Part shown: positions 547-5,921 of the stretch, piece by piece
Position numbering within the stretch: position 1 is the stretch's first letter
Layout: the number at the start of each line of letters is the position of its first letter
Assembly: GCA_024643945.1 (NCBI GenBank)
Contig: JAHELX010000381.1
Coordinates: 1 to 6,167, forward strand
Direction: 5' to 3'
Length of the DNA: 6,167 nt
Source: Anaerolineales bacterium
Lineage (GTDB): Bacteria; Chloroflexota; Anaerolineae; 4572-78; NAK82
Notes under the pieces: generated by a model
The model's input: the letters and a program-made list of their open reading frames with translations, nothing else
What the model was told of the DNA's origin: nothing
Database searches by the model: none
Made by a program: the position numbers and the translations under genes

Positions 547-575
547 TTGTCAGTCAGGGGCAGATATGATATACT
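547..575 (+). promoter_or_regulatory. Candidate sigma70 promoter P1
   Basis: TTGTCA (547-552, 5/6 to consensus) and TATACT (570-575, 5/6) are separated by an ideal 17 bases; the start would be near 582. It would give the GTPase gene a ~284-base leader. A caution: the -10 box adjoins or overlaps the upstream edge of the decayed coding remnant at 579-665. Confidence 0.5.
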
Positions 576-578
576 AAA

Positions 579-665
579 ATGCCGGAATGTAGATTATCGG
601 AAAACGCTCTCAAAGTCTTGAAGCGCACATTTGGACAAGTGGAACTAATACCCTGTCAACAGTGA
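579..665 (+). pseudogene. Remnant of the C-terminal tail of a lost gene (copy 1)
   Basis: The frame starting at 579 reads MPECRLSENALKVLKRTFGQ, then VELIPCQQ and a TGA at 663-665. It aligns with the genuine C-terminus of the membrane protein at 1981-3588 (PGCELSENTWRVLDSMFGQV): 12 of 21 residues and 40 of 63 bases are identical by hand count over 582-644. Homology may extend weakly upstream to about 561, where an in-frame TGA (567-569) breaks it. The remainder of the gene is not present. The initial ATG aligns with a Lys/Arg codon of the other copies, so it is not thought to be a true start. It lies in the GTPase leader and is probably a molecular fossil; a functional 28-residue leader peptide cannot be excluded. 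Confidence 0.65.
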
Positions 666-669
666 TTTG

Positions 670-686
670 ATCCCGCTTTGCGGGAT
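670..686. repeat. Perfect 7-bp hairpin with 3-base loop
   Basis: ATCCCGC (670-676), TTT, GCGGGAT (680-686). The stem is GC-rich and perfect. There is no U-tract after it on either strand, so an intrinsic terminator is not favoured; it may be an RNA leader stem or a piece of a dispersed repeat. Confidence 0.6.
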
Positions 687-750
687 TTGACGAGTACGAC
701 CAAGCGCTATGGGTGTCAAAATTACCTCCCAATTCCCCACCCACGGTCCC

Positions 751-774
751 CCCTCGGGGCCGCCCTCGGGGCAG
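751..774. repeat. 12-bp tandem duplication
   Basis: CCCTCGGGGCCG (751-762) is followed directly by CCCTCGGGGCAG (763-774), one mismatch in 12. Each unit contains the near-palindromic CCCTCGGGG. It is followed by, and overlaps, the perfect palindrome GCAGGCCTGC (771-780). Confidence 0.6.
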
Positions 775-809
775 GCCTGCACAGGGGAAAGGGGACCTAT
801 GGGTTAGTC

Positions 810-839
810 TTGACAGGGCGCTAGGTGCAGCCGAATAAC
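810..839 (+). promoter_or_regulatory. Candidate sigma70 promoter P2 with a perfect -35 box
   Basis: TTGACA (810-815, 6/6) is followed after 18 bases by AATAAC (834-839, 4/6). Initiation near 846 would leave a normal ~20-base leader containing the ribosome binding site of the GTPase gene. The -35 box is also the right arm of the inverted repeat ending at 818, so that repeat may supply the promoter. Confidence 0.35.
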
Positions 840-854
840 GAAAACCGACTCGAA

Positions 855-860
855 AGAGGA
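855..860 (+). promoter_or_regulatory. Ribosome binding site of the GTPase gene
   Basis: AGAGGA lies 5 bases before the ATG at 866, supporting that start over any upstream extension. Confidence 0.6.
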
Positions 861-865
861 CCATC

Positions 866-1852
866 ATGCTTTGTCCATTCTGCCTGGCCGACGTGAGGTT
901 CAAGCAGGAGAAATTGGCCGGTAATCCGGCCTCTGTCCACCTCTGCCCCATTTGCAATGAGCAGGTGCCAGCTTTGTATGCCCAGGATTACCGCAGGTAT
1001 CCGCCGGTGGTCATCAGCGCTATCGGCTTTCGCCAGCACGGCAAGACCGTCTACTTTGCCTCCCTCTTCTACACCCTAAAAAAACTGACCCTGGCCCGCG
1101 ATTGGCCGGAGTTTTTCACCATGGGTCTCGACGAGGATAGCCTCGATACGGTCTATGGCAACGCCAGGATGTTGGAAAAGGGAGCATTGCCGGACTCCAC
1201 GCCCAAAAACTTTCCCCGGCCAACGATGGTCCGCGCCGAGGGAATCCCGATGCAACCCAACTGTACGCTGCTATTCTTTGACACGGGCGGGGAGTCATTT
1301 GAAAAGCCCACGCAACTGGTCCAGTTTGCCGGTTTTGTGCGGCGGGCCAAGGCTGCTATGCTCCTAATCAGCATCCCTGACCTGGAAGACCCCCGGGCTG
1401 AGGTGCAACAACTCCTCAACACCTATGTGGTCGGCCTGAGAGAACTTGGAGGCCGAACGCAGTCCCAGCACCTGATCGTGGTCTATACCAAAGCTGACCA
1501 ATTGTCCACTTGCCTTACGGGCCAGTGGGAGGATTTGCGCACCTACCTTATTCAGGGTTCTGTGGAAGCCCTGGCCCAGCCCGATGGGTACATGCAGCGT
1601 ATGCACGACATCTCTGCCCGGCTCCACGAGTTCACCGAAAGGGAGCTGCATGCCCACGAGTTTATAAACGCTGCCGAGGCCAATTTCAAAAGTATCAGCT
1701 TTTCCATCATTTCGGCATTGGGCGCCGGGCCTCTGGGTGCGCGATTGCCGGTTGCCATTGTTCCCCGCCGTATTCTCGACCCAATACTGTGGGTCATGGA
1801 GAAGTCCTTTGCCGGCCGCGGACGGGTTTGGCGCACATGGCGGAGACGGTGA
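866..1852 (+). CDS. Zinc-ribbon P-loop GTPase, Double-GTPase 2-like
   Basis: A 328-residue protein with an N-terminal zinc ribbon (CPFC at residues 3-6, CPIC at 27-30) followed by a GTPase-type P-loop domain. Visible motifs: Walker A/G1 GFRQHGKT (54-61); G3 DTGG (139-142) after the hydrophobic strand TLLFF; strand AAMLLISI (163-170); G4 TKAD (208-211) after LIVVY; and a G5-like SAL (283-285). The TKAD motif implies guanine specificity. The C-terminal RRILDPILWVME (301-312) and basic tail also fit the bacterial family I know as Double-GTPase 2, found in predicted GTP-dependent conflict systems; the family assignment is from memory of its architecture. There is no membrane segment, so it is likely cytosolic. 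It is the first gene of the cluster, and a GAP1-like partner is encoded at 4269. It likely acts as the GTP-driven switch. Nucleotide-binding fold: high certainty; biological role: inferred. Confidence 0.85.
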   Translation: MLCPFCLADVRFKQEKLAGNPASVHLCPICNEQVPALYAQDYRRYPPVVISAIGFRQHGKTVYFASLFYTLKKLTLARDWPEFFTMGLDEDSLDTVYGNARMLEKGALPDSTPKNFPRPTMVRAEGIPMQPNCTLLFFDTGGESFEKPTQLVQFAGFVRRAKAAMLLISIPDLEDPRAEVQQLLNTYVVGLRELGGRTQSQHLIVVYTKADQLSTCLTGQWEDLRTYLIQGSVEALAQPDGYMQRMHDISARLHEFTERELHAHEFINAAEANFKSISFSIISALGAGPLGARLPVAIVPRRILDPILWVMEKSFAGRGRVWRTWRRR

Positions 1853-1884
1853 GGCCATGAAACAACCACTTGGCGTCATCTTCG

Positions 1885-1991
1885 TATCGAGAACCTCTCT
1901 ATAAGCAGATGCCTTGCTTTATCCGTCCCGAGTGCCGGCTATCAGAAATACGTTGTGGGTTTTGGATAGCAGGTTTGGACATGTGGAGTGA
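1885..1991 (+). pseudogene. Decayed 3' end of a lost paralogous gene (copy 2)
   Basis: The frame at 1885 reads YREPLYKQMPCFIRPECRLSE (to 1947), matching YRKPRYQQMPCIVKPGCELSE at the end of the membrane protein: 13 of 21 residues and 40 of 63 bases by hand count. Past 1947 the frame is off by one base. Restoring one base gives S-E-N-TLWVLDSRFGHVE and a TGA at 1989-1991, matching SENTWRVLDSMFGQVG; a 41-base stretch here is ~31/41 identical to the intact copy. Only the tail is left, directly after the GTPase gene. A short ORF at 1857-1904 (MKQPLGVIFVSRTSL), 4 bases after the GTPase stop and in another frame, could be the start of the same lost gene joined to its end by a deletion; this is weaker. 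An open frame runs through this region into the membrane protein gene, which is why a TTG start at 1870 would look possible. Confidence 0.75.
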
Positions 1992-3588
1992 GTGGGTGAC
2001 ACGGTTAATGCAGGATGCGGCTTTACAGAAAGATCATAGCAGTCAGCCATCCCCGGTTAGTGGTCGCGCCCAAGACTGGCAGAATGTTCTGTGGCGCGAG
2101 TGGCGCAACTGCGAGGATGAAGAATATGCAGGGCACCTATTTAAACTCGTAGCTGATGAGCTGTCACTCGACTGGCGAATGACGACTCTCATAACCCTGC
2201 TCGGCACGCTGGCTGGCGCAGTAGGCGGGTTGTTGGTGGGATTCGTTGATATGGCCTGGGTTACCTGGAGTAAATCTGGGCAGGACGCGACAAGTTGGAC
2301 AGTGTTACTCATCTGCACAGGGGCAGGCAGCCTGGTGGGTGGCATCATTGGCGTGATGGCTCCCATGCGACTGCGGGCATATCATACTTGGCGTGTGTTG
2401 TTTTTCAGGCTGCGGGTCGGACTGGCCGTTGGGCTGATATCCTTGTTGTTGGGCGGTCCGATTGCTGGCCTGGTAGGGGGTCTCATTGCCGGTTGGGCGT
2501 CTGTGCCCATTGCCAAATGGCGAGGCTTTGACCCGTCGCATTTTGATCCTTTGCGCATTGGATTGGTCCTTGGATTGATCGCCGGATTAATAACCGAATT
2601 GGTCTATGGGGGATGGGCAGGGGTGGCCATAGGCGTGTTTGTTGGATTCGTTTCCTGGCCGGCTCTGGCATTCATTGTAGCGGCGCATGGGCCGGGCGGA
2701 AAGATAGGTGCCTTGTTTGATGCGTGGCGTAGGGAGGTGAGCGAGGGCCAGCAACCGATCCCCCTCATCGAGCAATTCATACAGCACCGGCATCGTCACT
2801 GGTATTTTTGGTGGCGGGAACAGCCTGTAAGGGTGGAAGTAGAAAAAGCTTTATGGGAAGCTCGCGCTGCTCATGGTTGGGCCCGAGGGGTCTGGACCCG
2901 GCCCCTACACCGCCTGGAGGAGCGGCAGCAGGGGCCAGAGGCACCCGACCAACTCATCGACGACCTGCAAAACGAGGACTGGGTTGAGCGCTTCACTGCG
3001 CGTCACACGCTGATTGCGTTGGGCGGGAAGGCTGTGCAGCCACTGCAATCGCTGGTGGAGGACCAAACGGATTCATTAGGTAGGTTGGCAGTCACGGTGC
3101 TAAAGGAAATCGGGTTCGAAACCACAACACGATGGGTGGGAAATGCTTCCACATCGCTGTGTTTGCAATGTCTGGCACGCTGCTGTGCCCACCGGGCTCA
3201 CCTGCCATGGCAGCCTGACGTAACTTATTACGGTTGCCGGATCTGCCACCAGAGTCAAGCGTTTATCCATTGCCCGCAGGGGGTAGTGGTTGTGCTGGAT
3301 ACCGCCTGGACCGGCATGCAAGAACAACAGAATGGCCTCTTGCGGGTCAATTGGTTAACACGCCGCGCTCTGTTTGACTTTGACCGGGTAGAAATCATCC
3401 TGGCCACCGACGAAGATGTGGAGCGCTTCGCAATCCAGGTCGGCAACGACACCGATCCCTATAGAAAACCACGCTATCAACAAATGCCATGTATCGTCAA
3501 GCCGGGGTGCGAATTGTCGGAAAATACCTGGCGAGTTTTGGACAGCATGTTTGGACAGGTAGGACGTACGACCGCCATCAAGGCGTAA
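1981..3588 (+). CDS. Multi-pass membrane protein with HEAT-like and Cys-rich C-terminal domains
   Basis: From ATG 1981 the protein has 535 residues. A soluble N-terminus (1-66) with Trp- and acid-rich WQNVLWREWRNCEDEEYAGH is followed by strongly hydrophobic Gly-rich segments at about 68-90, 107-127, 145-174, 191-208 and 211-234, then a basic loop. A HEAT-like unit spans about 322-380 (DDLQNEDWVERFTARHTLIA, then GKAVQPLQSLV). The C-terminal domain (about 383-526) has zinc-ribbon-like Cys pairs C394/C397 and C419/C422, a strand VVVVLD, DFDRVEIILATDEDVERF (466-483), and a conserved tail QMPCIVKPGCELSEN. No characterised family is recognised. A TTG at 1870 would add 37 residues, but those come from the upstream remnant, so I reject it. 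ATG 1981 overlaps the remnant's stop; ATG 2008 is an equally reasonable start. The downstream gene starts 4 bases after its stop, implying co-transcription. It probably anchors the system to, or acts on, the membrane. Confidence 0.8.
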   Translation: MWSEWVTRLMQDAALQKDHSSQPSPVSGRAQDWQNVLWREWRNCEDEEYAGHLFKLVADELSLDWRMTTLITLLGTLAGAVGGLLVGFVDMAWVTWSKSGQDATSWTVLLICTGAGSLVGGIIGVMAPMRLRAYHTWRVLFFRLRVGLAVGLISLLLGGPIAGLVGGLIAGWASVPIAKWRGFDPSHFDPLRIGLVLGLIAGLITELVYGGWAGVAIGVFVGFVSWPALAFIVAAHGPGGKIGALFDAWRREVSEGQQPIPLIEQFIQHRHRHWYFWWREQPVRVEVEKALWEARAAHGWARGVWTRPLHRLEERQQGPEAPDQLIDDLQNEDWVERFTARHTLIALGGKAVQPLQSLVEDQTDSLGRLAVTVLKEIGFETTTRWVGNASTSLCLQCLARCCAHRAHLPWQPDVTYYGCRICHQSQAFIHCPQGVVVVLDTAWTGMQEQQNGLLRVNWLTRRALFDFDRVEIILATDEDVERFAIQVGNDTDPYRKPRYQQMPCIVKPGCELSENTWRVLDSMFGQVGRTTAIKA

Positions 3589-3592
3589 ACCC

Positions 3593-4246
3593 ATGCTCAT
3601 ATCCTTTGATCGAACGAAATTCCCCCTTTTCGCCATGGAGGGGATAGGTATTGAAATACACCTGCTGCCGGTAACCAAATGGCAGTTTGAGCAGTACGTC
3701 GTGGAGTCTGGCTGGGTGGCCAGGCCTGGCTATAAGAAAATGCTGGCTTTGAATCCTGGAGTCTCGCCGGAGCAGTTTACGGCTGACGAGCGAGAACGGC
3801 TCTTTGTCACCGGTGTTCTACCCGAAGAAGCGCAGGCGTTCGCCCGCTGGTTGGGGCAAGGCTTTGAGTTGCCTACAGTTGAGGAGTGGCGCGCCGTTTA
3901 TGCCACTTTAAGGCGGACACCTCTACCCAGGTATGATTTGCCATCCGAAGTGATCGAAGGGACGGCCGGCATTATCTTGAACGAACTCTCGGTTCAACTT
4001 AACGCTCGTTCTATGTTGGATTTGACCTTGATGGGCGGGGGGCTAGTCGAGTGGGTGCGACAGGCGGAGAGCTGGGTCGGATTGGGGGCGCCGCGCCCCC
4101 AGTTTCATCCGAACCTGTGGAACCCGCTCGACCATGAGGTCAGACCCATCCGGCTCGACGAGCGCCTGCCTTACTTCGGGTTTCGGCTGGTGCGGCGCGG
4201 CGAGTGGTATTTGGCTGATAGAGGGAATGCGAGATTCATTTATTGA
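3593..4246 (+). CDS. FGE-sulfatase-fold protein, predicted non-catalytic
   Basis: A 217-residue protein with the landmarks of the formylglycine-generating-enzyme/SUMF1 (C-type-lectin-like) fold in order: PVTKWQFEQYV (26-36; compare PVTNAQ(Y/F)..FV), EEAQAFARWL (78-87) then FELPTVEEW (91-99; compare LPTEAEWE), MGGGLVEWV (147-155; compare SGNVWEW) and the terminal FGFRLVR (195-201). True FGEs oxidise a sulfatase cysteine using an active-site cysteine pair; this protein contains no cysteine at all, and no sulfatase is nearby. A ligand- or peptide-binding role is therefore more likely, as proposed for such domains in bacterial conflict systems and seen in diversity-generating-retroelement target proteins. 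The usual N-terminal GGxFxMG-type start is missing and the protein is short. There is no signal peptide. It begins 4 bases after the membrane protein stop and is followed 22 bases later by the GAP1-like gene. Confidence 0.8.
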   Translation: MLISFDRTKFPLFAMEGIGIEIHLLPVTKWQFEQYVVESGWVARPGYKKMLALNPGVSPEQFTADERERLFVTGVLPEEAQAFARWLGQGFELPTVEEWRAVYATLRRTPLPRYDLPSEVIEGTAGIILNELSVQLNARSMLDLTLMGGGLVEWVRQAESWVGLGAPRPQFHPNLWNPLDHEVRPIRLDERLPYFGFRLVRRGEWYLADRGNARFIY

Positions 4247-4268: not shown

Positions 4269-5921
4269 ATGATCCCAGTTCAAGCCTGGCAGCACATCTA
4301 CAGCAACGTAGAGAAAGCGCAGTCGCCCAAGAGACGGGGGGGCTTTCAGACGCTTTTCTACACCACCTCCGGCTTGACAGAGGCTGAGGTATCAGAGATG
4401 GAGAGTCGCTTACTCTATTTTCCATCCGACGTGGAGCCGGTCAAGCATCTCTTTTTCACCATCTCAACCGGCAAGGGCGTGGTAGCCCAAATTGTAGCTT
4501 TGCCGGAGCCGGACCAATTTGGCCGGAAGGGACGCTACCTGGCCCACAGCCTGGTATTCGCCCCGGAGGGGCTGGCCCAATTTGAGGCCGATCCCTTCCG
4601 TGTATTTCGCAGATTTTCATTCATCACTACCGTCGCCGAGGCCTTAGCTCAGGGTGACTTCCGGACGGGTGACATCCCAGCCGTCTGGCTGGAGTTGCTC
4701 CCGGCCCCGGCGCGCAACGTTCAGGCGGCGCGCCGTTGGTCAGTGCCGGAGCTCAAAAAGCTGGCCCTGCTGGCTTTGCGGGCCGATCAGCAGGCCCGCG
4801 AGCGTGAAGCCATCACCTTTGCCGGAAGTCCGCAGCAGATTGAGGACGCCCTTGAAGCGAGTTTTCTGGTTGTACCGACCTCCTTTCGTCTGCGCTGTTC
4901 CTTTGATACCTACTTTTACCACTGCAATCTGGTGGCAACCTATTATTGGGCCATTGGCTTGCCAGAGCCGCCGGTCGGCATTAAGTTTGCCCTGGTAGAT
5001 GGAAAATCGCGGCAAGTGCAGGGTGCTGTCCCCAGTCACCCCGAAACGGCGTACGAGCGCTGGGCACTGACGGCTATCGAAGCCAGGCAATTGGATGAGA
5101 TTGTCCATAGACGGAATAACGCGTTTGCCGTAGCCGAGTGGCTGGACGGTCGAGCGTATGACCTTTCGTCTCTGGAAGAAGCATCGCCTGAACTTATTGC
5201 CTCTGTTTTTAAGGCCAATCCCCAGCCGGTGCAGGCCTCACTCCGCAGCCGGGTGGGCGAACAGTTGCCATCTGCGCTGGTTGAGCGCGTAGCTGAGCAT
5301 ATCTATAGGCAAACGGAAGGGGTTGTCCTCTTCCGGCAATTGCGGCAGGGCTTTGGATTAGCCCAATTACTGGACGGGTTGTACGCGAGTTATGCAGCCC
5401 AGAATTTTGAGGAACCGTCGCAAGAGGAAGTCAAGGCACTGGGGTCGATGTTGAGGAAGGTCGACCACCAGTTGCTTCGCCTGTTTTGGTCCTCCTGGCA
5501 CGATCCACACAAACAACTGCCCAAGGAACTTGAGCGGGTGGGCGAAGCCGAGTATCGCCAATTTGCGGAAATTGCTCTGCGTCTGGAATCGCTCGACCCA
5601 TTCAGCTTGCTCATACCGGGCCGTGGAGACGCCTTTCTTGACCTGTATCTTGCTTCCGGGGTCGATGATTTAGTTGATCTGGTCAAGGCGTTGATAAAAG
5701 TCGAGGAGACGGCTTGCCTGTCACGCCTGGCGGACTATGTACCAAAGTTGTCACGCAAAGCCTTGAAACAACTAGCCAGGCTCATTGCCAGGCAGGCCGA
5801 TACACCAGAGCCGTTCCGATCGGCAGTTGAAGCGGCCAGTGCTGCCTCGCCACCCAGGAAGGGGATCAGGAGAATGTTGCGGACCTTTCGGCGTCGCGTG
5901 CCAGGTAGAGAGCAGAAGTAA
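4269..5921 (+). CDS. GTPase-associated protein 1 (GAP1)-like protein
   Basis: A 550-residue soluble protein. The N-terminal ~140 residues match the pattern of GAP1 N-terminal domains: an opening AWQHIYSN (6-13), GGFQTLFYTTSGLTEAEVSE (24-43), a strand VKHLFFTIS (58-66), and GRYLAHSLVF (88-97), comparable with the '(G)R.(G)..(A)H.LV' motif of the family. A middle domain follows with FLVVPTSFRLRCSFDTYFYH (199-218), like the 'LP...R..lSFdT' segment of the GAP1 middle domain. The remainder (about 300-525) is helix-rich, and the end is basic (RRMLRTFRRRVPGREQK). GAP1 proteins are encoded next to Double-GTPase-type GTPases and are predicted to regulate or partner them; the GTPase at 866 fits. No catalytic motif, membrane segment or nucleotide-binding motif is seen. 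The family call rests on remembered motifs and the neighbourhood; a profile search would settle it. Confidence 0.7.
   Translation: MIPVQAWQHIYSNVEKAQSPKRRGGFQTLFYTTSGLTEAEVSEMESRLLYFPSDVEPVKHLFFTISTGKGVVAQIVALPEPDQFGRKGRYLAHSLVFAPEGLAQFEADPFRVFRRFSFITTVAEALAQGDFRTGDIPAVWLELLPAPARNVQAARRWSVPELKKLALLALRADQQAREREAITFAGSPQQIEDALEASFLVVPTSFRLRCSFDTYFYHCNLVATYYWAIGLPEPPVGIKFALVDGKSRQVQGAVPSHPETAYERWALTAIEARQLDEIVHRRNNAFAVAEWLDGRAYDLSSLEEASPELIASVFKANPQPVQASLRSRVGEQLPSALVERVAEHIYRQTEGVVLFRQLRQGFGLAQLLDGLYASYAAQNFEEPSQEEVKALGSMLRKVDHQLLRLFWSSWHDPHKQLPKELERVGEAEYRQFAEIALRLESLDPFSLLIPGRGDAFLDLYLASGVDDLVDLVKALIKVEETACLSRLADYVPKLSRKALKQLARLIARQADTPEPFRSAVEAASAASPPRKGIRRMLRTFRRRVPGREQK

Follow-up and report, generated by a model that had tools for sequence, protein, structure and literature searches.

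Two orphan C-terminal tails beside a DO-GTPase/GAP1-N2 gene cluster of an Anaerolineales bacterium as probable remnants of lost paralogues

A 6,167-nucleotide stretch of contig JAHELX010000381.1 from an Anaerolineales bacterium (assembly GCA_024643945.1; the whole stretch is hereafter the window) carries a DO-GTPase/GAP1-N2 gene cluster in which the end of one conserved C-terminal (CT) domain occurs three times, once within an intact gene (tail C) and twice as decayed fragments in gaps between genes (relics A and B). We consider relics A and B to be, with a probability of about 0.8, the last pieces of lost CT paralogues from a gene set with fast turnover beside the DO-GTPase/GAP1-N2 core. The window reads, in order, a steroid-dehydrogenase-family gene, gap A, DO-GTPase2, gap B, a membrane/HEAT protein gene with the intact tail, an FGE-sulfatase-domain protein gene, a GAP1-N2 protein gene and the start of a diphosphomevalonate decarboxylase gene; all window features given coordinates as relics or cluster genes below lie on the forward strand.

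The motif of relic A, PECRLSENALKVLKRTFGQVE, is found at 582-644 and corresponds to the 3'-terminal ~21 codons of a CT gene, its frame continuing to a stop codon at 663-665. Relic B (1885-1991, the last ~35 codons) is divided between two frames, with a motif at 1885-1988 that reads YREPLYKQMPCFIRPECRLSE and then RNTLWVLDSRFGHVE ahead of the stop codon TGA at 1989-1991. Alignment places their intact counterpart, tail C, at 3460-3561. An initial annotation had reported the same tail three times, one intact and two decayed, and this holds. Its motif positions for A (582-644) and B (1927-1988) stand, the start given for C (3499) is one codon early, with the P codon at 3502, and the likeness between B and C begins further upstream than was reported, at 1885 and 3460. 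DNA identities of 42/60 (A-B), 42/65 (A-C) and 70/100 (B-C) fall inside the 63-76% estimated there.

A tail profile was built from 116 tails among the matches of the CT domain search, the window's own intact copy included. The best domain scores were 36.4 bits in gap A (independent E-value 3.5e-9 for the relic) and 31.7 bits in gap B, where the first piece of the relic gave an independent E-value of 4.6e-6 and the second 0.1; the best shuffled sequences reached 10.3 and 8.5 bits, and none of 2000 shuffles of either gap equalled the real score. Matches other than the window's own protein were also found by blastx against 155 CT proteins, that protein included, the best being P0111 for relic A (E 1.3e-7, 76%) and P0016 for relic B (E 2.9e-7). 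Every match with E below 0.01 falls on the tail of the CT proteins, and weaker ones elsewhere (E >= 0.05) look like chance. At the DNA level, scoring matches 1 and mismatches -1, the real score was reached by 0/2000 shuffles for every pair. With +2/-3 it was reached by 0 for B-C, by 15 for A-B and by 54 of 2000 for A-C, so the randomised-sequence check is weaker here for A, and DNA by itself is modest evidence for relic A. These last counts are what a chance resemblance has in its favour; at the protein level it is refuted for both relics, and we regard it as having a negligible probability.

Tail A is closer to the tail of locus L001 than to C, and tail B is equally close to C and to the tails of loci L016 and L003. 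Judged by these distances, neither relic is a recent copy of C, and no recent exchange is seen among the copies in the window. The view that the copies are old paralogues with no recent duplication is upheld.

Gene order in relatives points to what was lost at gap B. Four loci (L001, L002, L003 and L005) have the order GTPase, short CT gene(s), long CT gene, FGE and GAP1, and in L001 the long gene is followed by a third CT gene. The short gene (~300 aa) occupies the position of gap B and relic B, and since these four loci keep it in full, deletion of a CT gene at gap B is well supported. These four are among the six GTPase-carrying genomes of one family (4/6); the remaining pair, G007 and G222, have no CT gene at this place other than a single short one. 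Loci L030 and L077 have a single short CT gene after the GTPase. Across the 13 loci outside the window that contain both a GTPase and a CT gene, all of which were found through CT and one of which (L006) has its gene split over two frames, the CT gene is next after the GTPase in 13/13, with at least two in a row in 6/13. The ATG of the short CT frame lies 3 bp after the GTPase stop codon in L002 and L005, and in the window an ATG lies 4 bp after it. The best reading of relic B is thus a short CT gene that has lost its interior, of which 1857-1884 may be the 5' stub; the stub is suggested by this spacing and had no sequence match in blastx against the CT proteins.

For gap A, deletion of a CT gene is likely on the strength of the relic's own sequence. 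At the position of B, related genomes do have genes with this tail, the full short CT genes, and for A an intact counterpart upstream of the GTPase was found in 0/11 loci. The closest counterpart found for gap A is a decayed cluster in genome G534 (L124/L128; L128 1339-2809). Three remnants follow one another there: the N-terminal part of a truncated CT gene, downstream of it a GTPase fragment (65% match to residues 65-257 of the GTPase in the window), and then an orphan CT tail. An imperfect palindrome (CCTCGGGGCAGGCCTG/CAGGCCTGCACAGGGG) is present at 764-787, between relic A and the GTPase.

The variable component of the system would thus be a set of often tandem CT genes, sharing a C-terminal domain and differing in their N-terminal parts, of which copies may be gained and lost over time. 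Relic B would be the last ~105 bp of a short CT gene deleted from the space that separates the GTPase from the long CT gene, and relic A the last ~65 bp of a further CT gene deleted upstream of the GTPase. As relic B abuts the start region of the next gene, a deletion ending there would leave that downstream gene expressed. Such an observation is mostly ordinary in kind, a case of gene turnover rather than a new mechanism.

Several points weigh against this reading. Blastx against the CT proteins detected nothing in gaps A and B from the N-terminal part of either lost gene. The sequence upstream of the GTPase gave no CT match in any of the 11 loci scanned, four of which offered stretches of less than 700 bp. 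The scans used the C-terminal domain, which made them certain to return tails and liable to overlook N-termini without one, and the deletions are read from the relics and from relatives' loci rather than from a direct before/after comparison. The adaptor role proposed below for the CT domain draws wholly on gene order and domain make-up.

Full and decayed CT copies also occur at other positions in relatives. A full CT gene precedes GAP1 in L017, L019 and L023, and L006 has a decayed copy at the same place. Further decayed copies were seen in L070 and in L068, where the tail directly follows another, membrane-protein-like frame. A further one, in locus L071 (8397-8852), is a CT frame that lacks the middle of the domain, matching profile positions 30-90 and then 124-184 in one frame.

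Of more interest than the relics is the CT gene family with its domain. The intact long gene ends at 3588 and starts at ATG 1981 or, preferably, at ATG 2008 (2008-3588), a start favoured by a by-eye comparison with P0002 and P0003, which begin near residue M2008. It encodes membrane helices, HEAT helices and the CT domain (3010-3579). With the last 185 residues of the protein as query, 338 relatives were found among 714 candidates; across the best 120 of the 338, the C-terminal ~150 residues are alike and the N-termini differ. In 20 sequences, C394, C419, C422 and N515 are invariant, with C397 and L512-S513-E514 nearly so, and across 42 CT sequences three cysteines are invariant and one nearly invariant. 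Among the window, L001, L002 and L003, the long CT genes are 33-43% identical in their N-terminal parts, while the GTPase in the family is 72-82% identical to the window's.

Modelled alone, the CT domain reached a mean predicted local distance difference test (pLDDT) score of 95.8, with helices, a beta unit holding four cysteines (CxxC..CxxC) and an alpha/beta end. The tail is the final strand-helix-strand of this model and no domain of its own. The family combines HEAT helices, zinc-ribbon-like cysteines and a Rossmann-like end with variable N-termini. Fold searches returned common Rossmann-like arrangements only, and Pfam gave no consistent match on 70 members (HEAT_2 in 7/70, six other families in one or two each). 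The likeliest role of the domain, held at about even odds, would be to couple variable N-terminal parts, often membrane parts, to the GTPase/GAP1 core.

A single scan across genome contigs yielded 25 CT loci, comprising 15 of Chloroflexi or Anaerolineae type, four of Armatimonadetes type, four of Thermodesulfobacteriota type, one in Desulfococcaceae and one in Pirellulaceae. In searches that scored only some first-look candidates per genome, CT matches were found in 8/396 genomes of the class of G003, all eight in one 12-genome family, and in 4/389 genomes of the class of G010, three of them at E 1e-8 to 6e-4. Counted over a set of 12 genomes, CT matches number 1 to 12 per genome. A GTPase 72-82% identical to that of the window is present in six of the 12 family genomes, and because of this identity the window probably derives from near that family. 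No GTPase match was seen on the stretch examined in 14 of the 25 scanned loci (L007, L008, L010-L013, L015, L016, L018 and L020-L024), some of these stretches stopping at contig ends. Large direct duplications lie downstream of the CT genes in L013 (11044-20534) and L016 (10869-20496), with 65-85% identity in pieces and units ~6.8 kb apart. Direct repeats, some two dozen in number and spaced at ~75 bp, occur in L004 (18505-20461); one pair shares a 35 bp unit at 97% identity, and the whole looks like a CRISPR array or a repeat gene.

The initial annotation offered another account, in which the conserved 3' coding end is a landing point for recombination and exchange of cassettes. On this account, crossover in the tail with incoming or neighbouring genes would swap variable N-terminal parts and leave orphan tails behind. 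Relatives lend it patchy support. In DNA, tails of adjacent genes are 0.90 identical in L022 and 0.89 in L003, above all 612 between-locus pairs (maximum 0.875), while identity over the first part of the domain is 0.46 and 0.52; the adjacent tails of L002 (0.75) are reached by 4/612, and the remaining 15 of 18 within-locus pairs by at least 19 of 612. Codon identity, taken over residues with an agreeing amino acid only, was compared between ten adjacent pairs and 15 control pairs picked by the analyst, and was raised in the tail (p<0.05) in 4/10 and 0/15, respectively (Fisher p 0.017). The four are L003 (p 0.0008), L022 (p 0.0010), L005 s1/s2 (p 0.009) and L002 (p 0.037), of which L003 and L022 stay significant after correction for ten tests; the other six adjacent pairs show nothing, however, and two controls come near significance (p 0.059 and 0.071). 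P0002 and P0003 share 240/286 body residues and 18/34 tail residues (Fisher p 9e-5), P0053 resembles P0052 in the body (0.85; tail 0.47) and P0043, listed on a contig of equal length, in the tail (0.90), and a tail in G010 agrees with the G534 orphan tail at 85/97 positions. Against these cases, 26 linked pairs had no raised tail residual in a protein test (p 0.38), with more excess in windows near the start of the CT domain (p 7.1e-5 and 1.6e-5). The closeness of P0002 to the window tail (27/34 against 190/286 elsewhere, p 0.17) is not significant alone, the affinities of A and B described above speak against exchange in the window, and what is seen is the sharing of tails, not the swap of a whole N-terminal part. 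Tail sharing is hence neither a general property of linked pairs nor a feature of the window, and we hold the landing-point account to be unlikely. Slightly more doubtful still is its fuller form, in which the CT 3' coding end would be a preferred crossover site that swaps N-terminal modules of linked or incoming genes and keeps the conserved adaptor end, with orphan tails as footprints. Exchange between neighbouring copies in some loci, not confined to the tail, is likely from these comparisons, and gene conversion would best account for the overwritten 3' coding ends common to neighbours, which are seen in some relatives and not in the window. The adenine-specific pattern of a diversity-generating retroelement was not seen, as A accounts for 2/13 mismatching letters between the orphan tail of G534 and each of two L022 tails.

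It is also conceivable, and a less remote prospect than tail crossover, that the tails were retained because they are useful to the downstream gene, as a ribosome-binding region or through translational coupling, and are not neutral debris. Relic B overlaps ATG 1981 and has its stop codon 16 bp away from ATG 2008, the relic in L006 ends where the stop-bounded GAP1 frame begins, and stop-bounded frames of neighbouring CT genes overlap in L002 and L005. Relic A, however, ends 200 bp ahead of the GTPase start at ATG 866, so that the description of both remnants as lying just upstream of a start codon fits B and is loose for A; after the L068 tail, same-strand frames start at 8255 or lower, with no overlap. 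This possibility we rate as tentative. It is very improbable that the long protein takes in a translated relic B at its N-terminus: the first frame of the relic has no stop codon between 1861 and 3585, yet the CT-tail match in that frame runs only to 1947 and then passes to another frame, and P0002 and P0003 begin near M2008. As that frame is open straight into the long gene, relic and gene would be fused by any gene caller that takes TTG 1870 as the start.

Loss of CT paralogues remains our preferred account, and it is set in a recognisable system. The window cluster is the core of a GAP1-N2-type DO-GTPase system as described in the available part of PMC7159879. In a Pfam scan of six window proteins, the DO-GTPase2 (866-1852) matched PF19993 (E 2.8e-9, 37.4 bits against a cutoff of 27) and the GAP1 protein (4269-5921) matched PF20013, GAP1-N2 (E 1.8e-7, 31.7 bits against a cutoff of 24). 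The FGE-sulfatase (FGS) domain protein lies between the long CT gene and GAP1 (3593-4246; PF03781, E 9.4e-8). With regard to the N-terminal zinc ribbon(s) of the GTPase in such systems, LCPFC and LCPIC occur near the N-terminus here, and no Pfam zinc model scored above cutoff. Among the six proteins no match to FNIII was found, although the cluster may run past the window, and no reverse transcriptase, the wider flanks lying outside the scan.

The system of PMC7159879 resembles the window in its DO-GTPase, its GAP1-N2 protein, its membrane-bound variable components, its hosts, which include chloroflexi, and its FGS-domain protein, there in planctomycetes. It differs in a component with FNIII repeats, not seen in the window, and no HEAT/zinc-ribbon-like CT family with variable N-termini in tandem figures in the available part of that account. 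What the CT family adds to that account is a variable component without a consistent Pfam match: its genes keep one C-terminal domain in common while their N-terminal parts change, and their turnover is fast next to a GTPase that changes slowly. The same source describes GAAD of GAP1-N1 systems, a small conserved alpha-helical module proposed to couple variable parts to GAP1. CT is likewise a small conserved module joined to variable parts, but is modelled as mixed alpha/beta and belongs to a GAP1-N2 system.

In agreement with the initial annotation, no prior account of such tail relics for GAP1 loci was found in the literature searched, subscription journals being mostly outside it. Rhs/contact-dependent inhibition (CDI) loci with orphan 3' regions and orphan immunity arrays of the Vibrio type VI secretion system (PMC5361080, in the part available) offer the nearest comparison. 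In those loci it is the C-terminal part that varies, and the immunity genes left behind are complete; in the window it is the conserved C-terminal end of an incomplete gene that remains, and no immunity gene was seen. Rhs/CDI-type C-terminal displacement does not describe the window, since the C-terminal part is here conserved and the relic is its end. If the tail were a crossover site, it would be the mirror image of C-terminal toxin displacement. In these systems as in the window, leftovers record the replacement of variable genes beside a conserved core, and orphan and shared tails offer a way to read the history of gain and loss.

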